Shown here one piece after another: positions 31,285-61,835 of a DNA stretch of 64,000 nt. This stretch comes from Nostoc sp. S13 (lineage in GTDB: Bacteria; Cyanobacteriota; Cyanobacteriia; Cyanobacteriales; Nostocaceae), in contig NZ_JAQYWQ010000015.1 in NCBI RefSeq assembly GCF_029379315.1, positions 1 through 64,000 on the forward strand. Direction: 5' to 3'. A program made the translations under genes and the position numbers. Under the pieces are notes generated by a model that worked only from the letters and a program-made list of their open reading frames with translations, had not been told where the DNA came from and made no database searches. The number at the start of each line of letters is the position of its first letter. The first letter of the stretch is position 1.

Positions 31285-31386
31285 TAAGCTGTCGCGCATT
31301 TAATTTGCACAACTAGGGCGGGCAAGATGCCCACCCCACAAGAGATTCATTTTTTTGAGGATGCAAATTAAAAGATTTTTAGCTTA
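31285..31386. mobile_element. MITE-like element between the kinase and regulator genes
   Basis: Inverted ends TAAGCTGTCGCGCATTTAATTTGCA and (reverse strand) TAAGCTAAAAATCTTTTAATTTGCA enclose GGGCGGGCAAGATGCCCACCCCACAA, a core shared with family M3. It sits in the intercistronic gap of a two-gene operon. Confidence 0.78.
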
Positions 31387-32244: not shown

Positions 32245-32631
32245 GTGTGGCGTATTAGTAAACGTTGGATGCAAGGGCTGGGATTAGAGTTTTGGTTGCC
32301 TCTACCACTGATAGCGGTTGTGTTTTGGCTTGGCTGTAGTTTCCTAGCTGCTCAAGAGTTAAGCCGACCCTACTCCACGAAGAAAAAACTTCAGTCAGAT
32401 ACTCAACTTGAAGCACGGGTATCAGTCAATGTGTTGCTGATTAACGCCGCCGTCAACCGAACTAAGAGAATTACCCAGGTAGAAGTGGAAACAGCAGACC
32501 CAATCTTGAAGCGATTGGAATTAGAACTTCCAACGATAGAATTTAGCCAAATAGAAACAACAATTGCCCAAGAACTAGGTCTACCCCGTGAGGATGTTAG
32601 AAAGTTAGTGCGCTATGAAGTTGTTGACTAA
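32245..32631 (+). CDS. Hypothetical protein with one membrane anchor, divergent from rppA
   Basis: A 128-residue protein, not recognised. A single hydrophobic helix (LPLIAVVFWLGCSFLAAQ, about residues 18-36) is followed by a soluble part that may be periplasmic (ARVSVNVLLINAAVNRTKRITQVEVETADPILKRLELELPTIEFSQIETTIAQELGLPREDVRKLVRYEVV). The end looks like a small alpha/beta helper domain. The GTG start lies in a short divergent region shared with rppA, so it is a plausible regulatory target or accessory of that two-component pair; this rests on position only. Confidence 0.7.
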   Translation: MWRISKRWMQGLGLEFWLPLPLIAVVFWLGCSFLAAQELSRPYSTKKKLQSDTQLEARVSVNVLLINAAVNRTKRITQVEVETADPILKRLELELPTIEFSQIETTIAQELGLPREDVRKLVRYEVVD

Positions 32632-32933: not shown

Positions 32934-33243
32934 TTTTGTCACCTCAGTAGAAACGTAACCGTTCAGCGGGTAGAAAGAATGTCAACACCTACTGCCCAAT
33001 ACCTCACCACTAAGTGAGATGGTAAAGCACGTTTTCGCTCTTCACCTGCTTTTGCTTTAGCAATCGCTTGTTCTAATCACATCAGATGGAATTGTGGTGG
33101 TTTCTAAGGCTTTAAGCACTGTACTTAATTCGATGACAAGGGATATCAGTGAGAATTCGCCACCGTTGCATTATTACCGAACGCACACTGAAGACAAAGC
33201 TAAGTTTACAGGCTTTTTGGTCTTAACCGAACCGTATTGGGCG
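32934..33243. other. Intergenic region left of the GH32 cassette
   Basis: No recognisable gene; the 74-residue plus-strand track ORF ends inside the 69-bp direct repeat and shares its last residues with an ORF in the other repeat copy, so it is likely a by-product of that repeat. Confidence 0.5.
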
Positions 33244-33312
33244 ACTATGTATCTCACTTTCTGCCCTGCTAGCAACTCTCAACAGGTGATGCTAGCAGTT
33301 GACTTGAAAAAA
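33244..33312 (+). repeat. Direct repeat flanking GH32, left copy (69 bp)
   Basis: ACTATGTATCTCACT...CAACTCTCAACAGGTGATGC...AGTTGACTTGAAAAA. It matches 35701-35769 with about four or five differences, in the same orientation. An internal inverted GTCAACT/AGTTGAC is clear in the right copy. Confidence 0.93.
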
Positions 33313-33492
33313 CGCTAATAGTAATGTTCTTGCATGAATGGAGCGTCATGGAAAGCGGAAAAGTGTTATTTTTTGTTTACTCCATTAAATGCTTACCATG
33401 AAAATTTAATATATATGTAATGCATCCACTTACTTGCGTCAAAGTGGTGAAGTTTCAGCTGGAATTGCAGGGATATTCTTTGGAGAAGAGCG

Positions 33493-35586
33493 ATGAAGGT
33501 GCGTACTGTTTCTGTACTCTATGCGACCGCGGCTTTGTTGATTTTTCCCGTTCCTGCTCGGTCTGCGATCGAAAAGGTTGTTGGAGGTGGTAGTGTTCAT
33601 CAGGGTGAAACACGCCGTATTACTGTGGTCGGAGATGGGATCGATTTTGCGACTTCGGTCGCTTCCTCGGATGCACGGATTAGTGTCAGGCTTCTCAGTA
33701 AGAAAGGACTTGCACAGGGCAGAGCAAAAGGGCAGATTTTACTGGAAGTTGCTGTTCCCCTCGATGTCCCTAAAGATCAGAACTTTAACCTGACGGTTAA
33801 AATAGCCCCAAACCTTTATTACTCCAAGGGAGGTTCTGAAACGGTTCGGCTGAATGTGCAGGAATATCCTAACAGTTCATGGAGACCTTTCTTTCATTTT
33901 GCTCCTTCATGGGGATGGATGAATGATCCGAACGGTCTTGTCTACGTAAACGGGACATACCATCTCTATTATCAGGCAATTCCATTCTCCCGGGATCTTA
34001 ATGGTCAACTAAACTGGGGACATGCAGTTAGCACCGATCTGGTTCACTGGTCTCAGCGCAGAGACGCGATGTTCAGTCCGTCAATGGATCTCCTTCCAAG
34101 TAGCGATGATCAGAATCAAGTCTGGTCTCCTTTCTCGGGGTCTGCGGTGACTGTTAGTGGTGAGGCAGCAAGACAGCTCCCCTGCGACTGCTCAAACCTT
34201 TGTGTTGCTTCTATATTCACCAAGAACACTGCTATTATCTCACTCCAGGATCAGTGGCTTGCGGCTAGCTGCAATGGAGGCGAGTCCTTTAAAGCACCGG
34301 AGAGTGTGTTGCCTAACTTGACACCTCCTAAGCCAGATTTTCGAGATCCGAAGGTATTCCCCTATAAGGGACGCTGGATTATGGTGTTAGCGGTTGGAGA
34401 TAAAGCCGAGCTTTACGGGTCTGCGAATCTGAGACAATGGCACCTCCTTTCTTCTATCCCCCTCTACAGCAGCTTCACCACTTTAGGTCCTTTCGTCGAA
34501 ACCCCAGATTTGTTTGAGTTACCGATCAGCAATTCGGGGACGAACCAGACCAAGTGGATACTGACCTACAGCGAAGGTTTCCTTCCGCCTGTGGTATGCC
34601 AGGGTCTTCGAGACAGTACTGAAATGCCGCTCACTGACCCCAAACTCAAAAAGGACTGTGAAAGATCCCGAAAATTTACGTCACGTAGCTTCTATATCGT
34701 CGGCGAATTTGATGGGAAGCAGTTCAAGCAGGAGTCACAGCCTCGACCTATAGATTTTGGCTCAGATTTTTATGCGCCTCAAACCTGGTCTGGCACTCCA
34801 GGACGACGCATCCTGGCTGGCTGGCAAAATAATTGGCATTACGCCCACCAAACTCCAACAACGCCGTGGCGAGGACAATTGAGCATTCCGCGAGACCTGG
34901 GGTTGATGAGAGATTCTGACACCTATTGGTTGACTCAAACTCCGGTTCAAGAACTAGCGCTTCTGAGAAATTCTGCACTTGGGCGTGTGACTCGGCTGCG
35001 GGATAAACCCTTGACTAACAGGACACCAGAGGAGTTGAAGAATTTTCGTTCCACTGCATTCGATGCTGACCTAGCAATTGATGTTGCTGGTTTGCCCAAA
35101 GTGAACTCTGAAATCAAGATTCATCTTCGAGCGGGTAATACAGGGCAAGGAATGGTGTTGGCATGGCGACGTACTGGTTCCGACAAAGGAGAGTTATCAC
35201 TAACGCGCTCTGCTTCTGAAGCGGGTGGATCGACTTCAGAATTAAAACAACAAGAGTCTGGGTTTATCGGTAAATGGTTGTCTGTCTCTCTTCCTTTTGC
35301 AGCATCCACAATTCAGAGACTCGTATCAAACTTCAGGAATGCCCAACCCAATGAAAGCTCGCAGATCACTCAGGTGCCTGTTGTGACACGTGGCACGAAT
35401 AATAGCCTCTTAAAACTTCGGATTCTCGTGGATCGAAGTTCGGTAGAAGTGTTTGCGGGCGATGGACGAGTAGTGTTAAGTAGTTTATTCTTTCCTAATT
35501 CAGCCAATAAAGAGTTCAAGCTGTATGCAACAGGGGGAAATGCAAAGATAGTGAGCTTGGTTATATACCCGTTCAGTAATGACTGA
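33493..35586 (+). CDS. Secreted GH32 family beta-fructosidase (levanase/invertase-like)
   Basis: A 697-residue glycoside hydrolase with an N-terminal signal peptide (MKVRTVSVLYATAALLIFPVPARSA). Residues 26-125 look like an all-beta accessory domain. The five-bladed propeller starts near 130: nucleophile in GWMNDPNGLVY (Asp about 145), transition-state stabiliser in DFRDPKVFPY, acid/base in FVETPDLFEL (an E-T in place of the usual E-C). A C-terminal beta-sandwich ends LRILVDRSSVEVFAGDGRVVLSSLFFP. It should release fructose from sucrose, levan or inulin-type fructans outside the cell. The ATG has a good GGAGAAGAG site. The 2.1-kb gene contains no GCGATCGC, in contrast to its surroundings, and is flanked by 69-bp direct repeats, so transfer is likely. 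Confidence 0.94.
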   Translation: MKVRTVSVLYATAALLIFPVPARSAIEKVVGGGSVHQGETRRITVVGDGIDFATSVASSDARISVRLLSKKGLAQGRAKGQILLEVAVPLDVPKDQNFNLTVKIAPNLYYSKGGSETVRLNVQEYPNSSWRPFFHFAPSWGWMNDPNGLVYVNGTYHLYYQAIPFSRDLNGQLNWGHAVSTDLVHWSQRRDAMFSPSMDLLPSSDDQNQVWSPFSGSAVTVSGEAARQLPCDCSNLCVASIFTKNTAIISLQDQWLAASCNGGESFKAPESVLPNLTPPKPDFRDPKVFPYKGRWIMVLAVGDKAELYGSANLRQWHLLSSIPLYSSFTTLGPFVETPDLFELPISNSGTNQTKWILTYSEGFLPPVVCQGLRDSTEMPLTDPKLKKDCERSRKFTSRSFYIVGEFDGKQFKQESQPRPIDFGSDFYAPQTWSGTPGRRILAGWQNNWHYAHQTPTTPWRGQLSIPRDLGLMRDSDTYWLTQTPVQELALLRNSALGRVTRLRDKPLTNRTPEELKNFRSTAFDADLAIDVAGLPKVNSEIKIHLRAGNTGQGMVLAWRRTGSDKGELSLTRSASEAGGSTSELKQQESGFIGKWLSVSLPFAASTIQRLVSNFRNAQPNESSQITQVPVVTRGTNNSLLKLRILVDRSSVEVFAGDGRVVLSSLFFPNSANKEFKLYATGGNAKIVSLVIYPFSND

Positions 35587-35700
35587 TGATTTCAGATAAC
35601 GACTGCAAACTAATCAACCATCAGTGCGTAGACGCATTCGCGGAGCGTCTCGTAGAGAAGCGGCTTGTCGCCAGACATCGCTTTATTGATGTTCTAGGCA

Positions 35701-35769
35701 ACTATGTATCTCACTCCCTGCCCTGCTGTCAACTCTCAACAGGTGATGCTAGCAGTTGACTTGAAAAAG
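35701..35769 (+). repeat. Direct repeat flanking GH32, right copy (69 bp)
   Basis: Near-identical partner of 33244-33312, about 2.46 kb away. The two enclose the GH32 gene and its immediate flanks. Confidence 0.93.
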
Positions 35770-36084
35770 CGATTTAGCGCGATGGTCGCTTTGCATTCCC
35801 CGAAGGGGTTCTCGAAGAGTACCGCCGCAAGCATCGCAAATATAATCTTCATTTGCCTTCCTATATATGCTTCATTGTTGTCAAAAACTTCCAAGACTTT
35901 GCCCTGCGTACCCTAATTCACCAGTTCTAAATTTTTTATCTCCAGATTGCCAAGTTAAGGCTTGAGAGCAACTTAGAAGTTACCTTGCTTATTTTTGTTT
36001 CTTACTTGCGCCCAATTTTATAAGCAAATCCCTGATTAATTATTAGTACGCCCCATCAAATCTTTCATAATTTGGGGATTCAGG
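35770..36084. other. Intergenic region right of the GH32 cassette
   Basis: Holds dispersed repeat pieces (ATTCCCCGAAGGGGTTCTCGAAG and similar) and no gene. Confidence 0.5.
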
Positions 36085-36573
36085 CTAGACTTGTGCATTT
36101 AATGAAGTAGTCGTAGTTTGATTAATGCGTTCTGCCTTGGTTTTCAATGTTTGGTTCATCGCTTCAAACCCTTGGCGAACATCAATATTTAATCGACGAG
36201 CCAGCAGAGGTACTAGTAAGCCCTGGAAAGATGCTTGCTGAATGAAGCGGACGCGTAGGCGTAGCCCGTCGTAGATATCGCTTGCTAATGGTTCAATGAT
36301 AAAGCTATGTTCACCGTCAAATAGTCCTGGGCTCAAAAAATGCCCTAACCAGCGCAATTTGCGATTAGGTTCTACCGTAATCACAGTCGGTCGAAAGGTC
36401 ATAATATCTGTACCTGGAGGCTGAAAGTGAACGGTTAGCTGTGCCCCTTCACTCAGCGAGCCACTAATTTGACGAATAAACAGATTCCAATGTGGAAAAC
36501 TGGCAAAATCAGTGAGTAAGTTCCAGACCTGCTTATCGGATGCTTGAATTTCGATTTCAGTGTAGATTTTCAT
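36085..36573 (-). CDS. SRPBCC family protein with in-frame palindromic repeat
   Basis: A 162-residue START/Bet v1-like domain protein (MKIYTEIEIQASDKQVWNLLTDFASFPHWNLFIRQISG; ITVEPNRKLRWLGHFLSPGLFDGEHSFIIEPL; FEAMNQTLKTKAE). Such proteins bind a hydrophobic ligand; the substrate is unknown. Between IIEPLAS and RFIQQASFQGLLVP lies DIYDGLRLRVR, translated from GATATC TACGACGGGCTACGC, a dispersed palindromic repeat of these genomes. The insertion keeps frame and falls where a beta-turn is expected, so the protein may still fold. It is the first gene of the stress-related cluster on the minus strand. Confidence 0.85.
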   Translation of the reverse strand: MKIYTEIEIQASDKQVWNLLTDFASFPHWNLFIRQISGSLSEGAQLTVHFQPPGTDIMTFRPTVITVEPNRKLRWLGHFLSPGLFDGEHSFIIEPLASDIYDGLRLRVRFIQQASFQGLLVPLLARRLNIDVRQGFEAMNQTLKTKAERINQTTTTSLNAQV

Positions 36574-36909: not shown

Positions 36910-37032
36910 GGGATTTCCAAGAAATAAATTATCCCATCTTGTGGGGTGGGCATCTTGCCCGCCCATGATTACGGGCGGGCAAGATGCCCACCCCACAATA
37001 AATAGTTGTATATTTTTTTATTTGGAAGTCCC
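36910..37032 (+). mobile_element. MITE family M3 (123 bp) that split a UspA gene
   Basis: Ends GGGATTTCCAAGAAATAAA and (reverse strand) GGGACTTCCAAATAAA; between them two GTGGGCATCTTGCCCGCCC arms form a near-perfect hairpin. Flanks read TAA on both sides, so a TAA/TTA target duplication fits. Removing the element and one TTA restores the UspA frame as ESSYQTGDPGTN. A diverged, expanded copy lies at 42604-42810. Confidence 0.9.
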
Positions 37033-54341: not shown

Positions 54342-54476
54342 AATACGCTTGGATTAAGGTAAAATCTTTTGTCAAAGTCAATTTTTTTATCGTAGACGCA
54401 AAGCGGCTTGCCGCAGGCTACCACAGAGGCGCAGAGAACACCGAGACAAGAAAGAAATGCTTAACTGAACTGTATT
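54342..54476 (-). mobile_element. MITE-like family M5, diverged inverted copy
   Basis: TCTTTTGTCAAAGTCAATTTTTTTA on the left and TGCTTAACTGAACTGTATT on the right match, in inverse orientation, the ends of the M5 copies at 57177 and 61612. The interior holds CAAAGCGGCTTGCCGC-type palindromes. Confidence 0.7.
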
Positions 54477-54726
54477 GAGATTTGCGGATTTATTCGTGGG
54501 GTCATCCAAAATCCAAAATCGTTCGACTGAGCGACTTGCCTTGAGCGTACCCCTACGGGGAAGCAAGCTACGCGCAGCGTCTGGTAGAGAAGCCGAAAGG
54601 AGCAGAAGTCTAAAATCCAAAATTGTCTGACAGTTTAACCTCATAGACCGATGTAGAAGTAAATATTTTCAGATTTACTTGAAGCAGCTCCTTTAAAAAT
54701 TCGTAATCCAACCTTTGGACGCTTAT
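54477..54726. other. Intergenic region with dispersed repeats upstream of the antiporter
   Basis: Contains ATCCAAAATCGTTCGACTGAGCGACTTG and AAGCTACGCGCAGCGTCTGGTAGAGAAG-type repeats but no gene. The antiporter promoter must lie near the right end. Confidence 0.5.
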
Positions 54727-56988
54727 ATGCAAAACCTGTCCCTAATGTTAGTGCCTGTACTCGCTGCACAGAAAATAGTAGGTGACGGTTTAATTAAACC
54801 TCTCGGTCATCATGAACTGCTGTTGGTACTGGTGCAACTGTCATTATTGCTTCTGGTAGCACGGGGATTAGGTGAGTTGATGCGCCGGATTAACCTACCG
54901 CCTGTTGTTGGGGAATTATTGGCAGGTGTGCTGCTTGGCCCTTCTCTATTTGGTTTGCTGCTTCCAGACTTACAGGCTCACATCTTTCCCAAAAGTCAAG
55001 AACAATCGAATTTACTTTCGGTGATTTCTTGGTTAGGCGTGTTATTTTTGCTGATTGTGACTGGGTTGGAGACGGATCTGAAGCTGATTCTTCGTAAGGG
55101 TAAAACGGCTCTGCTAATTTCACTGGGCGGAATTATTGTCCCGTTTATCACCGGATTTGGATTGGGGTGGCTATTGCCTGATAATTTTTTAGCCGACCCA
55201 GATAAGCGACTGGTATTTAGTCTGTTCATAGCCACAGCAATGAGTATTTCGGCAGTACCAGTGATTGCTAAGGTGCTCATGGACTTAAACCTGATTCGCC
55301 GTGACATTGGTCAAGTCACCTTAGCAGCTGGTATGACTGACGACACCATCGGCTGGATTTTACTTTCTGTGGTTTCAGGTTTAGCTAGTAGCGGCAAGTT
55401 TGACTTTGGGACAATTTTTCACTCCGTAAGTGCGGCTATATTGTTTCTAGCGATCGCCTTTACAATTGGGCGTACCATCGTAGACCAGATTTTGCGGTGG
55501 GTTGATGACTACGTTGGCGGAATCTCCGCTAGTATCTCGGTTGTGCTAATTCTTTCGCTTTCAGCAGCAGCACTTACCCACGCATTAGGTCTAGAAGCAG
55601 CATTAGGTGCTTTCGTGCTGGGGATTTTGGCAGGTCAATCCCGCCGCTTTAGCAATGAAGCTGGACAGATGCTAGAAGTCTTCACAGCAGCCTTTCTAGC
55701 GCCAATTTTCTTTGCTTCAGCTGGGTTGAAAGTTAACTTGCTAACCCTGTTAGTCCCTCAAACGTTGATATTTGGCTTGATTGTTCTCGTTGTCGCCTGT
55801 GTTGGCAAATTTACAGGTGCTTATATTGGTTCTCGCGTCGGCGGCTTGAGTCATTGGGAAGGTTTGGCGATGGGTTCTGGGATGAATGCTCGCGGGGCGA
55901 TGGAAATTGTCGTGGCCACGATTGGTTTATCTTTGGGAGTGCTGAATCCACAGATGTACTCGATTATTGTTATGGTAGCGATCGCCACTTCCCTAATGGC
56001 TCCACCCCTTTTGCGCTGGTGTTTGTCGAAGGTGGTTATGAGTGAAGAGGAAGCTCGACGTTTGGAACAAGAAGAGCAGGATAGCCACAGCTTTATCAAG
56101 CAAATCCAGCGTGTCTTAATACCCACTAGCGGTGGCCCCAACATCCAACTCGCAGCGCAGCTAGTTGGTTACATGGCTCACCAAAACTCGATAGAAGTCA
56201 CATCTCTATATGCCCTGAGTGACAAGCAACCCCAAAAAAAAGCACGTCGAACGGCAACCCAGCTAAAAGACACTGCCGCCGAGCAAGCTCTTGCCTCTGT
56301 TGCTGAGGAAATGCAGCTACCTGCTGATACCAACCTGCAAACAAAAACGGAGTCTGGGCGTAGTAAAGCGGAGGTGATTCTGAATGAAGCAAACAAAAAC
56401 TATGACTTGATTGTACTGGGAGCTTCTGAACAGATACGCCCGCAGAAAGCATTGTTCAATTTGCTTGTAGACCGGGTAGTACAAGAAGCGCCTTGTGCAA
56501 CGATGGTGGTGAAGTCGCACCTACCCCAACCCAAAGGCGAGATATGCAGAATCACTCAACAACAGCTGACAAAGATTCTGGTGCCAACGGTGGGGACAGA
56601 ATATAGCAAAAATGCTGTAGAGATGGCAAGTACGATCGCTGCTCAAACAGGGGCTTTAGTGATGATCGTTAACGTAATTAATTTGCCACAGGCTGAGTAT
56701 ATTCTTTACGAACAGCGATCGCTAGCTCCAGTCAAGGAAATTGCCCGCGATCTGCTCGAACAGCAAGCAGCAATTGGCCGCAATCTGGGTGCTGATGTCA
56801 AAACCTATATTCTGCAAGGAACCAGCCCAGAAAGGGAAATCCTTAAGTTTGCCCAAAGCAATGAAGTTGACCTAATTATTCTCGGGAGTAGTATCCGAAT
56901 GGTTACGGGTCGCGTTTTCTTCGGTCACAGAGTGGATGCAATTCTGAGTAAAGCCCATTGCCCAGTAGCGGTAATTACTGTACCATAG
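54727..56988 (+). CDS. CPA2-family cation:proton antiporter with two C-terminal UspA domains
   Basis: About 753 residues from ATG at 54727 (track TTG is 12 bp upstream). Residues about 20-440 form a 12-helix CPA2/KefB-NapA-type exchanger: INLPPVVGELLAGVLLGPSLFG, ALLISLGGIIVPFITGFGLGW, SISAVPVIAKVLMDLNLIRRDIGQVTLAAGMTDDTIGWILLS (with the ion-binding Asp pair of CPA2 proteins), GMNARGAMEIVVATIGLSLG. Two UspA-like domains follow (about 465-605 and 615-755): RVLIPTSGGPNIQLAAQLVGYM with LIVLGAS, and KILVPTVGTEYSKNAVEMASTIA ending VDLIILGSSIRMVTGRVFFGHRVDAILSKAHCPVAVIT, which may bind nucleotide and gate transport. Role in salt or pH stress is inferred. Confidence 0.92.
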   Translation: MQNLSLMLVPVLAAQKIVGDGLIKPLGHHELLLVLVQLSLLLLVARGLGELMRRINLPPVVGELLAGVLLGPSLFGLLLPDLQAHIFPKSQEQSNLLSVISWLGVLFLLIVTGLETDLKLILRKGKTALLISLGGIIVPFITGFGLGWLLPDNFLADPDKRLVFSLFIATAMSISAVPVIAKVLMDLNLIRRDIGQVTLAAGMTDDTIGWILLSVVSGLASSGKFDFGTIFHSVSAAILFLAIAFTIGRTIVDQILRWVDDYVGGISASISVVLILSLSAAALTHALGLEAALGAFVLGILAGQSRRFSNEAGQMLEVFTAAFLAPIFFASAGLKVNLLTLLVPQTLIFGLIVLVVACVGKFTGAYIGSRVGGLSHWEGLAMGSGMNARGAMEIVVATIGLSLGVLNPQMYSIIVMVAIATSLMAPPLLRWCLSKVVMSEEEARRLEQEEQDSHSFIKQIQRVLIPTSGGPNIQLAAQLVGYMAHQNSIEVTSLYALSDKQPQKKARRTATQLKDTAAEQALASVAEEMQLPADTNLQTKTESGRSKAEVILNEANKNYDLIVLGASEQIRPQKALFNLLVDRVVQEAPCATMVVKSHLPQPKGEICRITQQQLTKILVPTVGTEYSKNAVEMASTIAAQTGALVMIVNVINLPQAEYILYEQRSLAPVKEIARDLLEQQAAIGRNLGADVKTYILQGTSPEREILKFAQSNEVDLIILGSSIRMVTGRVFFGHRVDAILSKAHCPVAVITVP

Positions 56989-57176: not shown

Positions 57177-57361
57177 AATACAGTTCAGTTAAGCATTTCT
57201 TGCTTCTCTTGCTTCTCTTGCTTCTCTCCTTTGCGTCCTTTGCGTCCTTTGCGACGGCAGTCGCTCATGGGGGAGACCCCCAAGACCGCGCTGCCTCTCC
57301 TTTGCGGTTCGTTAAAAAAATTGACTTTGACAAAGAGTTTTAGCCTTAACTGAACCCTATT
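57177..57361 (+). mobile_element. MITE-like family M5, copy 1 (185 bp)
   Basis: Left end AATACAGTTCAGTTAAGC, right end GCCTTAACTGAACCCTATT (inverted). The interior has tandem TTGCTTCTC and CTTTGCGTC units and a GCGACGGCAGTCGC palindrome. The 60-residue track ORF inside it is not a gene. Confidence 0.8.
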
Positions 57362-61611: not shown

Positions 61612-61835
61612 AATCCAGTTCAGCTAAACATTTCTTCCTTCTCTTCCTTCTCTTCCTTCTCTTGCTTTGCGACGGCAGTCGCTACAACTCTTGGAACCCC
61701 CCTTCGGGTTCACCAGTCGCCTACGGCGGGAAACCCGCCTACAGCGCTGGATTCACCGCAACGCGCTGCCTCTCCTTTGCGGTTCGTTAAAAAAATTGAC
61801 TTTGACAAAGAGTTAAGCCTTAAGTGAACCGTATT
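61612..61835 (+). mobile_element. MITE-like family M5, copy 2 (224 bp), inside the export operon
   Basis: AATCCAGTTCAGCTAAAC at the left, GCCTTAAGTGAACCGTATT at the right, matching M5 copy 1. Interior holds tandem CTTCCTTCT units and the GCGACGGCAGTCGC palindrome. It sits in the only large gap of the adaptor-permease-ATPase operon. Confidence 0.82.

Follow-up and report, generated by a model that had tools for sequence, protein, structure and literature searches.

A GH32 beta-fructofuranosidase gene between direct repeats at an accessory-gene hotspot in Nostoc, and its likely horizontal origin

Nostoc sp. S13 carries a complete GH32 beta-fructofuranosidase gene whose horizontal acquisition is well supported by comparisons of gene tree, vertical marker, genomic site and codon usage. 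The gene lies in the window, by which we mean the whole 64,000-nucleotide stretch analysed here (contig NZ_JAQYWQ010000015.1, positions 1 to 64,000). It is framed by two direct repeats, its tree conflicts with the marker, it occupies a site that is variable among relatives, and its protein is under purifying selection. As a whole, these features are probably best explained by the horizontal gain of a selected, exported GH32 enzyme at a hotspot, with the repeats as a by-product. A sequence-only reading of the same DNA had proposed a foreign origin of the gene, and the tree, the marker protein Tex, the site and the codon usage now favour that proposal. The features of the locus are collected in Table 1.

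Table 1. Features of the GH32 locus (window coordinates)
Feature	Position	Strand	Remarks
Left flanking conserved gene, 128 aa, no Pfam family	32245..32631	+	adjoins the site in about 20 congeners
Decayed N-terminus of IS4-family transposase	33005..33158	-	58-61% identical in two pieces to IS4 transposase of G249 (PF13006 + PF01609)
IS4-type terminal repeat CTTAACCGAACCGTATTG	33222..33239	+	last base directly before DR-L
Left direct repeat (DR-L)	33240..33314	+	last ~27 bp align with GH32 5' flank in G249
GH32 5' region	33315..33492	+	conservation with other cyanobacterial copies starts at about 33372
GH32 beta-fructofuranosidase	33493..35586	+	signal-like aa 1-25, Ig-like domain ~aa 26-125, GH32N aa 135-484, GH32C aa 511-692; putative catalytic D145, D285, E336
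Interspersed repeat-like sequence between gene and DR-R	35628..35696		longer in G065
Right direct repeat (DR-R)	35697..35771	+	common to G065
Right flanking SRPBCC-type gene (PF10604), 162 aa	36085..36573	-	family from Pfam

The GH32 protein and its possible role

The 697-aa product contains both domains of the GH32 family, PF00251 (E 2e-68, 231.6 bits) and PF08244 (E 4e-20, 72.7 bits), each scoring above the cut-off, and its best solved relative is an exo-inulinase (PDB 8i12). These two domains are common to exo-inulinases, levanases and beta-fructofuranosidases of GH32 (e.g. 8i12 and 1y4w), as are a catalytic Asp, Asp and Glu in the motifs WMNDPNG, RDP and E-x-P. By these motifs we assign the nucleophile Asp, the RDP Asp and the acid/base Glu to D145, D285 and E336, which are invariant in 13 GH32 sequences. 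Unlike enzymes such as 8i12 and 1y4w, the Nostoc protein has an extra N-terminal Ig-like domain, and Thr replaces the usual Cys after the acid/base Glu, as it does in all eight cyanobacterial GH32 copies. The N-terminal domain belongs to no Pfam family; predicted alone, it forms an Ig-like beta-sandwich (pLDDT 84) with no PDB match at an E of 0.001 or better. Prediction of the full-length protein gave no usable model (mean pLDDT 52). The ratio dN/dS is 0.15 against the sister species G065 and 0.23 against G226, a member of another cyanobacterial family; the protein is therefore under purifying selection.

The N-terminus, MKVRTVSVLYATAALLIFPVPARSA, has by eye the look of an export signal, and the protein is probably secreted. 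Its likely role is hydrolysis of sucrose and/or fructans outside the cytoplasm, with both substrate and export read from the sequence. The enzyme would release fructose and glucose there, and these sugars could be imported by FrtABC and GlcP; other Nostoc import fructose and glucose through frtA1A2BC and glcP (PMC10515406). Known routes of cyanobacterial sucrose breakdown run through sucrose synthase, amylosucrase and alkaline/neutral invertases (reviewed in PMC6753628). Sucrose hydrolysis is likely shared between these invertases and the Nostoc GH32. However, the invertases belong to an unrelated family (GH100) and are intracellular and sucrose-specific, whereas the Nostoc protein is a beta-fructofuranosidase with a signal-like N-terminus. 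If active outside the cell, it would add an extracellular sucrose/fructan route to those reviewed. In symbiotic Nostoc, where sucrose acts as a signal that suppresses hormogonia, an exported GH32 might also change that signal. No earlier report of a cyanobacterial GH32 turned up in the open-licence papers that we searched, although one may exist.

Evidence for horizontal transfer

Intact GH32 genes of this kind are found in 5 of 53 Nostoc genomes, in Calothrix NIES-4105 and, from another family, in G226 and G249, and they occupy different genomic sites. In the GH32 tree, the copies of the window and of G065 group with those of G226 and G249 (100/100), and the other Nostoc copies group with Calothrix. 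Forcing the Nostoc copies into one clade costs 46 log-likelihood units and is rejected (AU p = 3e-6). Outside the sister species, the closest copy is that of G226, at 88% identity, while congeners with a Tex identity of 93-97% reach only 84-87% in GH32. Tex alone serves as the vertical marker, and its tree is poorly resolved within Nostoc; as a protein it is 97% identical to that of G071 and G033, 82% to that of G226 and 80% to that of G249. At fourfold sites, the window GH32 gene differs by 0.22-0.23 from G033, G071 and G226 alike, whereas Tex differs by 0.16-0.19 from G033 and G071 and by 0.61 from G226. This comparison is independent of the rate of GH32 and further excludes ancient paralogues with losses. 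Codon usage, suggested earlier as a check, places GH32 as the second most deviant of 33 genes on the contig.

An old cyanobacterial gene that descended vertically with many losses, ancient paralogues included, would account for the finding that all close GH32 relatives are cyanobacterial and for the decayed GH32 pieces in G013 and G066. We strongly disfavour this explanation and consider it extremely improbable: between families, the copies show differences at just 22-23% of fourfold sites, against 61% in Tex, they lie at different genomic sites, and the topologies conflict. The gene does nest within a cyanobacterial clade, as vertical inheritance would have it, but it did not get there by vertical descent. 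In the GH32 tree, suggested earlier as a way to the donor, the gene groups with G226 and G249; no donor outside the cyanobacteria can be named, and the nearest non-cyanobacterial copies among those compared are about 34-38% identical to the cyanobacterial protein. Carriage by plasmid or phage was likewise rejected: the stretch 33180-33380 has no plasmid match, none of the plasmid GH32 matches listed exceeds 33% identity, and there were no matches among viral contigs or phage records.

Between this genome and G065, silent-site divergence is 0.09 in GH32 and 0.20 in Tex. The lower value in GH32 makes a later exchange of the gene between the two species possible. The GH32 case appears to document the transfer, between families of phototrophs, of a single sugar-degrading gene. 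More broadly, an exported GH32 might circulate as a solitary gene between filamentous cyanobacterial families and open external sucrose or fructans to phototrophs, a speculative reading to which we give rather more doubt than credence. Two remnants of the gene were seen in congeners: G013 retains only the N-terminal Ig-like region (L089 6179-6438), and G066 a short decayed N-terminus (L206, G066:C31).

The sequence-only reading had also taken the lack of HIP1 sites (GCGATCGC) as a sign of foreign origin. The gene indeed contains none, but chance suffices to explain this. With 5883 sites in the 7.234-Mb genome, the gene would be expected to have 1.7; the probability of finding none is about 0.18, and 15% of 2094-bp windows on the contig are empty. 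The absence of HIP1 is therefore uninformative, and we rejected it as evidence. Several native genes lack the motif as well, the longest HIP1-free stretch of the contig (32809-38614) takes in native genes too, and the other GH32 copies contain one site or none. The lesson is that a missing HIP1 in a 2-kb gene tells little about foreign origin.

An accessory-gene hotspot

Compared at one genome per species, relatives differ in what lies between the 128-aa gene and the SRPBCC gene: some carry other cargo, some nothing. In nine congeners (G004, G016, G020, G025, G029, G030, G060, G062 and G066) the two genes are separated by 7-68 bp, and in G071 by 343 bp. The same interval contains a reverse-transcriptase protein in G018, G033 and G063, with matches to the PADLOC RT-Protease, RT-TIR and RT-Toprim models, an aldo-keto reductase in G010 and G070, and an alpha-amylase with a DUF1003 protein in G006. 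No long direct repeats flank these other cargoes. Across about 20 genomes of different species, the interval behaves as an accessory-gene hotspot that lacks its own integrase. Horizontal-transfer hotspots without recognisable mobile elements or integrase have been described (Oliveira et al., 2017, PMC5635113), and the Nostoc site resembles them in the turnover of unrelated cargo between conserved genes with no recognisable integrase. It differs in scope: the cargo was compared across species of one genus, in about 20 genomes. The cargo of this small, integrase-free hotspot (sugar enzymes, reductase, anti-phage-type reverse transcriptase) varies between Nostoc species.

In G065 the cassette is surrounded by a second direct repeat, of 203 bp, that derives from the 3' portion of the SRPBCC gene (92%; L068 1071-1273 and 3960-4162), and the locus has an extra 254-aa ORF; the locus has therefore been rearranged more than once. 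Other Nostoc genomes contain scattered fragments of the SRPBCC gene 3' end (window 36083-36255; L030-L036), with a DNA identity of 75-82%. The reverse-transcriptase genes at the site in G063, G018 and G033 (L070, L071 and L084) encode defence-type proteins of ~610 aa.

The direct repeats and the mode of entry

The two direct repeats are 75 nt long, 92% identical and spaced 2457 nt apart; the 69-bp repeats recognised earlier on either side of the gene are their core. Because the sequence occurs nowhere else in the 7.23-Mb genome, the pair is far beyond chance. It is not unique in kind within the window, which also has pairs of 59 nt (95%), 53 nt (100%, 4.5 kb apart) and 52 nt (83%), besides a tandem array. 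The 75-bp repeat occurs in 2 of 391 genomes of the order and is absent from the GH32 gene's other genomic sites. In G065 the same cassette lies in the same place, 95.9% identical over 33186-35636, with both repeats. When the repeats of the two species are aligned, four columns distinguish the left copies from the right ones and no column distinguishes the species; the duplication therefore predates the split from G065. Neither genome has lost GH32 or homogenised its repeats.

The last ~27 bp of DR-L and the sequence after it form an unbroken alignment with the GH32 5' flank in G249. In a shuffle test of this similarity against that one genome, the DR-L score was reached by 5 of 500 shuffles and the DR-R score by none. 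Because the alignment is unbroken, we read DR-L as probably inherited upstream DNA of GH32 and DR-R as probably an extra copy. The second-copy origin of DR-R depends on a similarity of about 27 bp to a single genome. We propose that a complete, selected gene, kin to the source of the G226 and G249 copies, was taken up from another cyanobacterial lineage. Its insertion between the two flanking genes would date from the common ancestor of this species and G065 and would have come about through recombination in flanking DNA or through illegitimate joining. The repeats are then most readily seen as a by-product, with DR-L the inherited 5' flank abutting an IS4-type end and DR-R the beginning of a second copy that the unit once had; about this part we are almost evenly divided, leaning slightly against. 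The second copy would have been made before the two species split and otherwise deleted.

Alternatively, the repeats could be att sites of a small integrative element: a site-specific recombinase acting in trans would have inserted a circular GH32 cassette and duplicated a host attB, and precise excision would be possible. Direct repeats of att-like size do frame exactly one gene, and GH32 is mobile on an evolutionary scale. Nevertheless, we judge this origin highly improbable. The 75-bp repeat was not found, even as a single copy, at the nine empty sites or at the G071 site, so the att-like duplication and precise loss envisaged in the sequence-only reading, with gene-free relatives keeping one copy, did not hold up. 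In addition, GH32 is the only ORF of 80 aa or more between the repeats, and no recombinase gene is present; the repeat is missing from 389 genomes of the order and from the gene's other sites; and the copies are old and unhomogenised. A tRNA target was sought near the locus and not found. Integron attC sites were also rejected, with fold z-scores of -1.5 to +0.6 and no long hairpin over the repeat, and no known RNA element was found at the locus.

Capture by insertion sequences, in which GH32 moved in a composite or IS-bounded element of which the repeats are parts, is also unlikely in our view, if less so than att integration. The IS4-type terminal repeat abuts DR-L to the base; this 18-mer ends many dispersed elements in Nostoc, and none is expected in shuffles of the window. 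Moreover, the G249 copy of GH32 has transposase genes as neighbours, IS66 and IS4 among them, and the Calothrix copy has an IscB-like RRXRR gene upstream. Against capture, an IS end is found on the left only, with none next to DR-R; the 75-bp sequence lacks the dispersed genomic copies that an IS end would have; and the neighbouring elements vary from site to site.

Several further repeats and mobile-element genes were noted. The IscB-like gene of Calothrix NIES-4105 (L127 4683-5732) is ~270 bp upstream of GH32. In the window, near matches to the IS4-type terminal repeat (2 mismatches) surround ORF 54715-56988, at 54460, 57176 (minus strand) and 57345, and the perfect 53-bp direct repeat occupies 57287-57339 and 61762-61814. 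A dispersed palindromic element, GGGCGGGCAAGATGCCCACCCC, occurs on both sides of the locus, at 31316-31343, 36937-36964 and 36973-37003.
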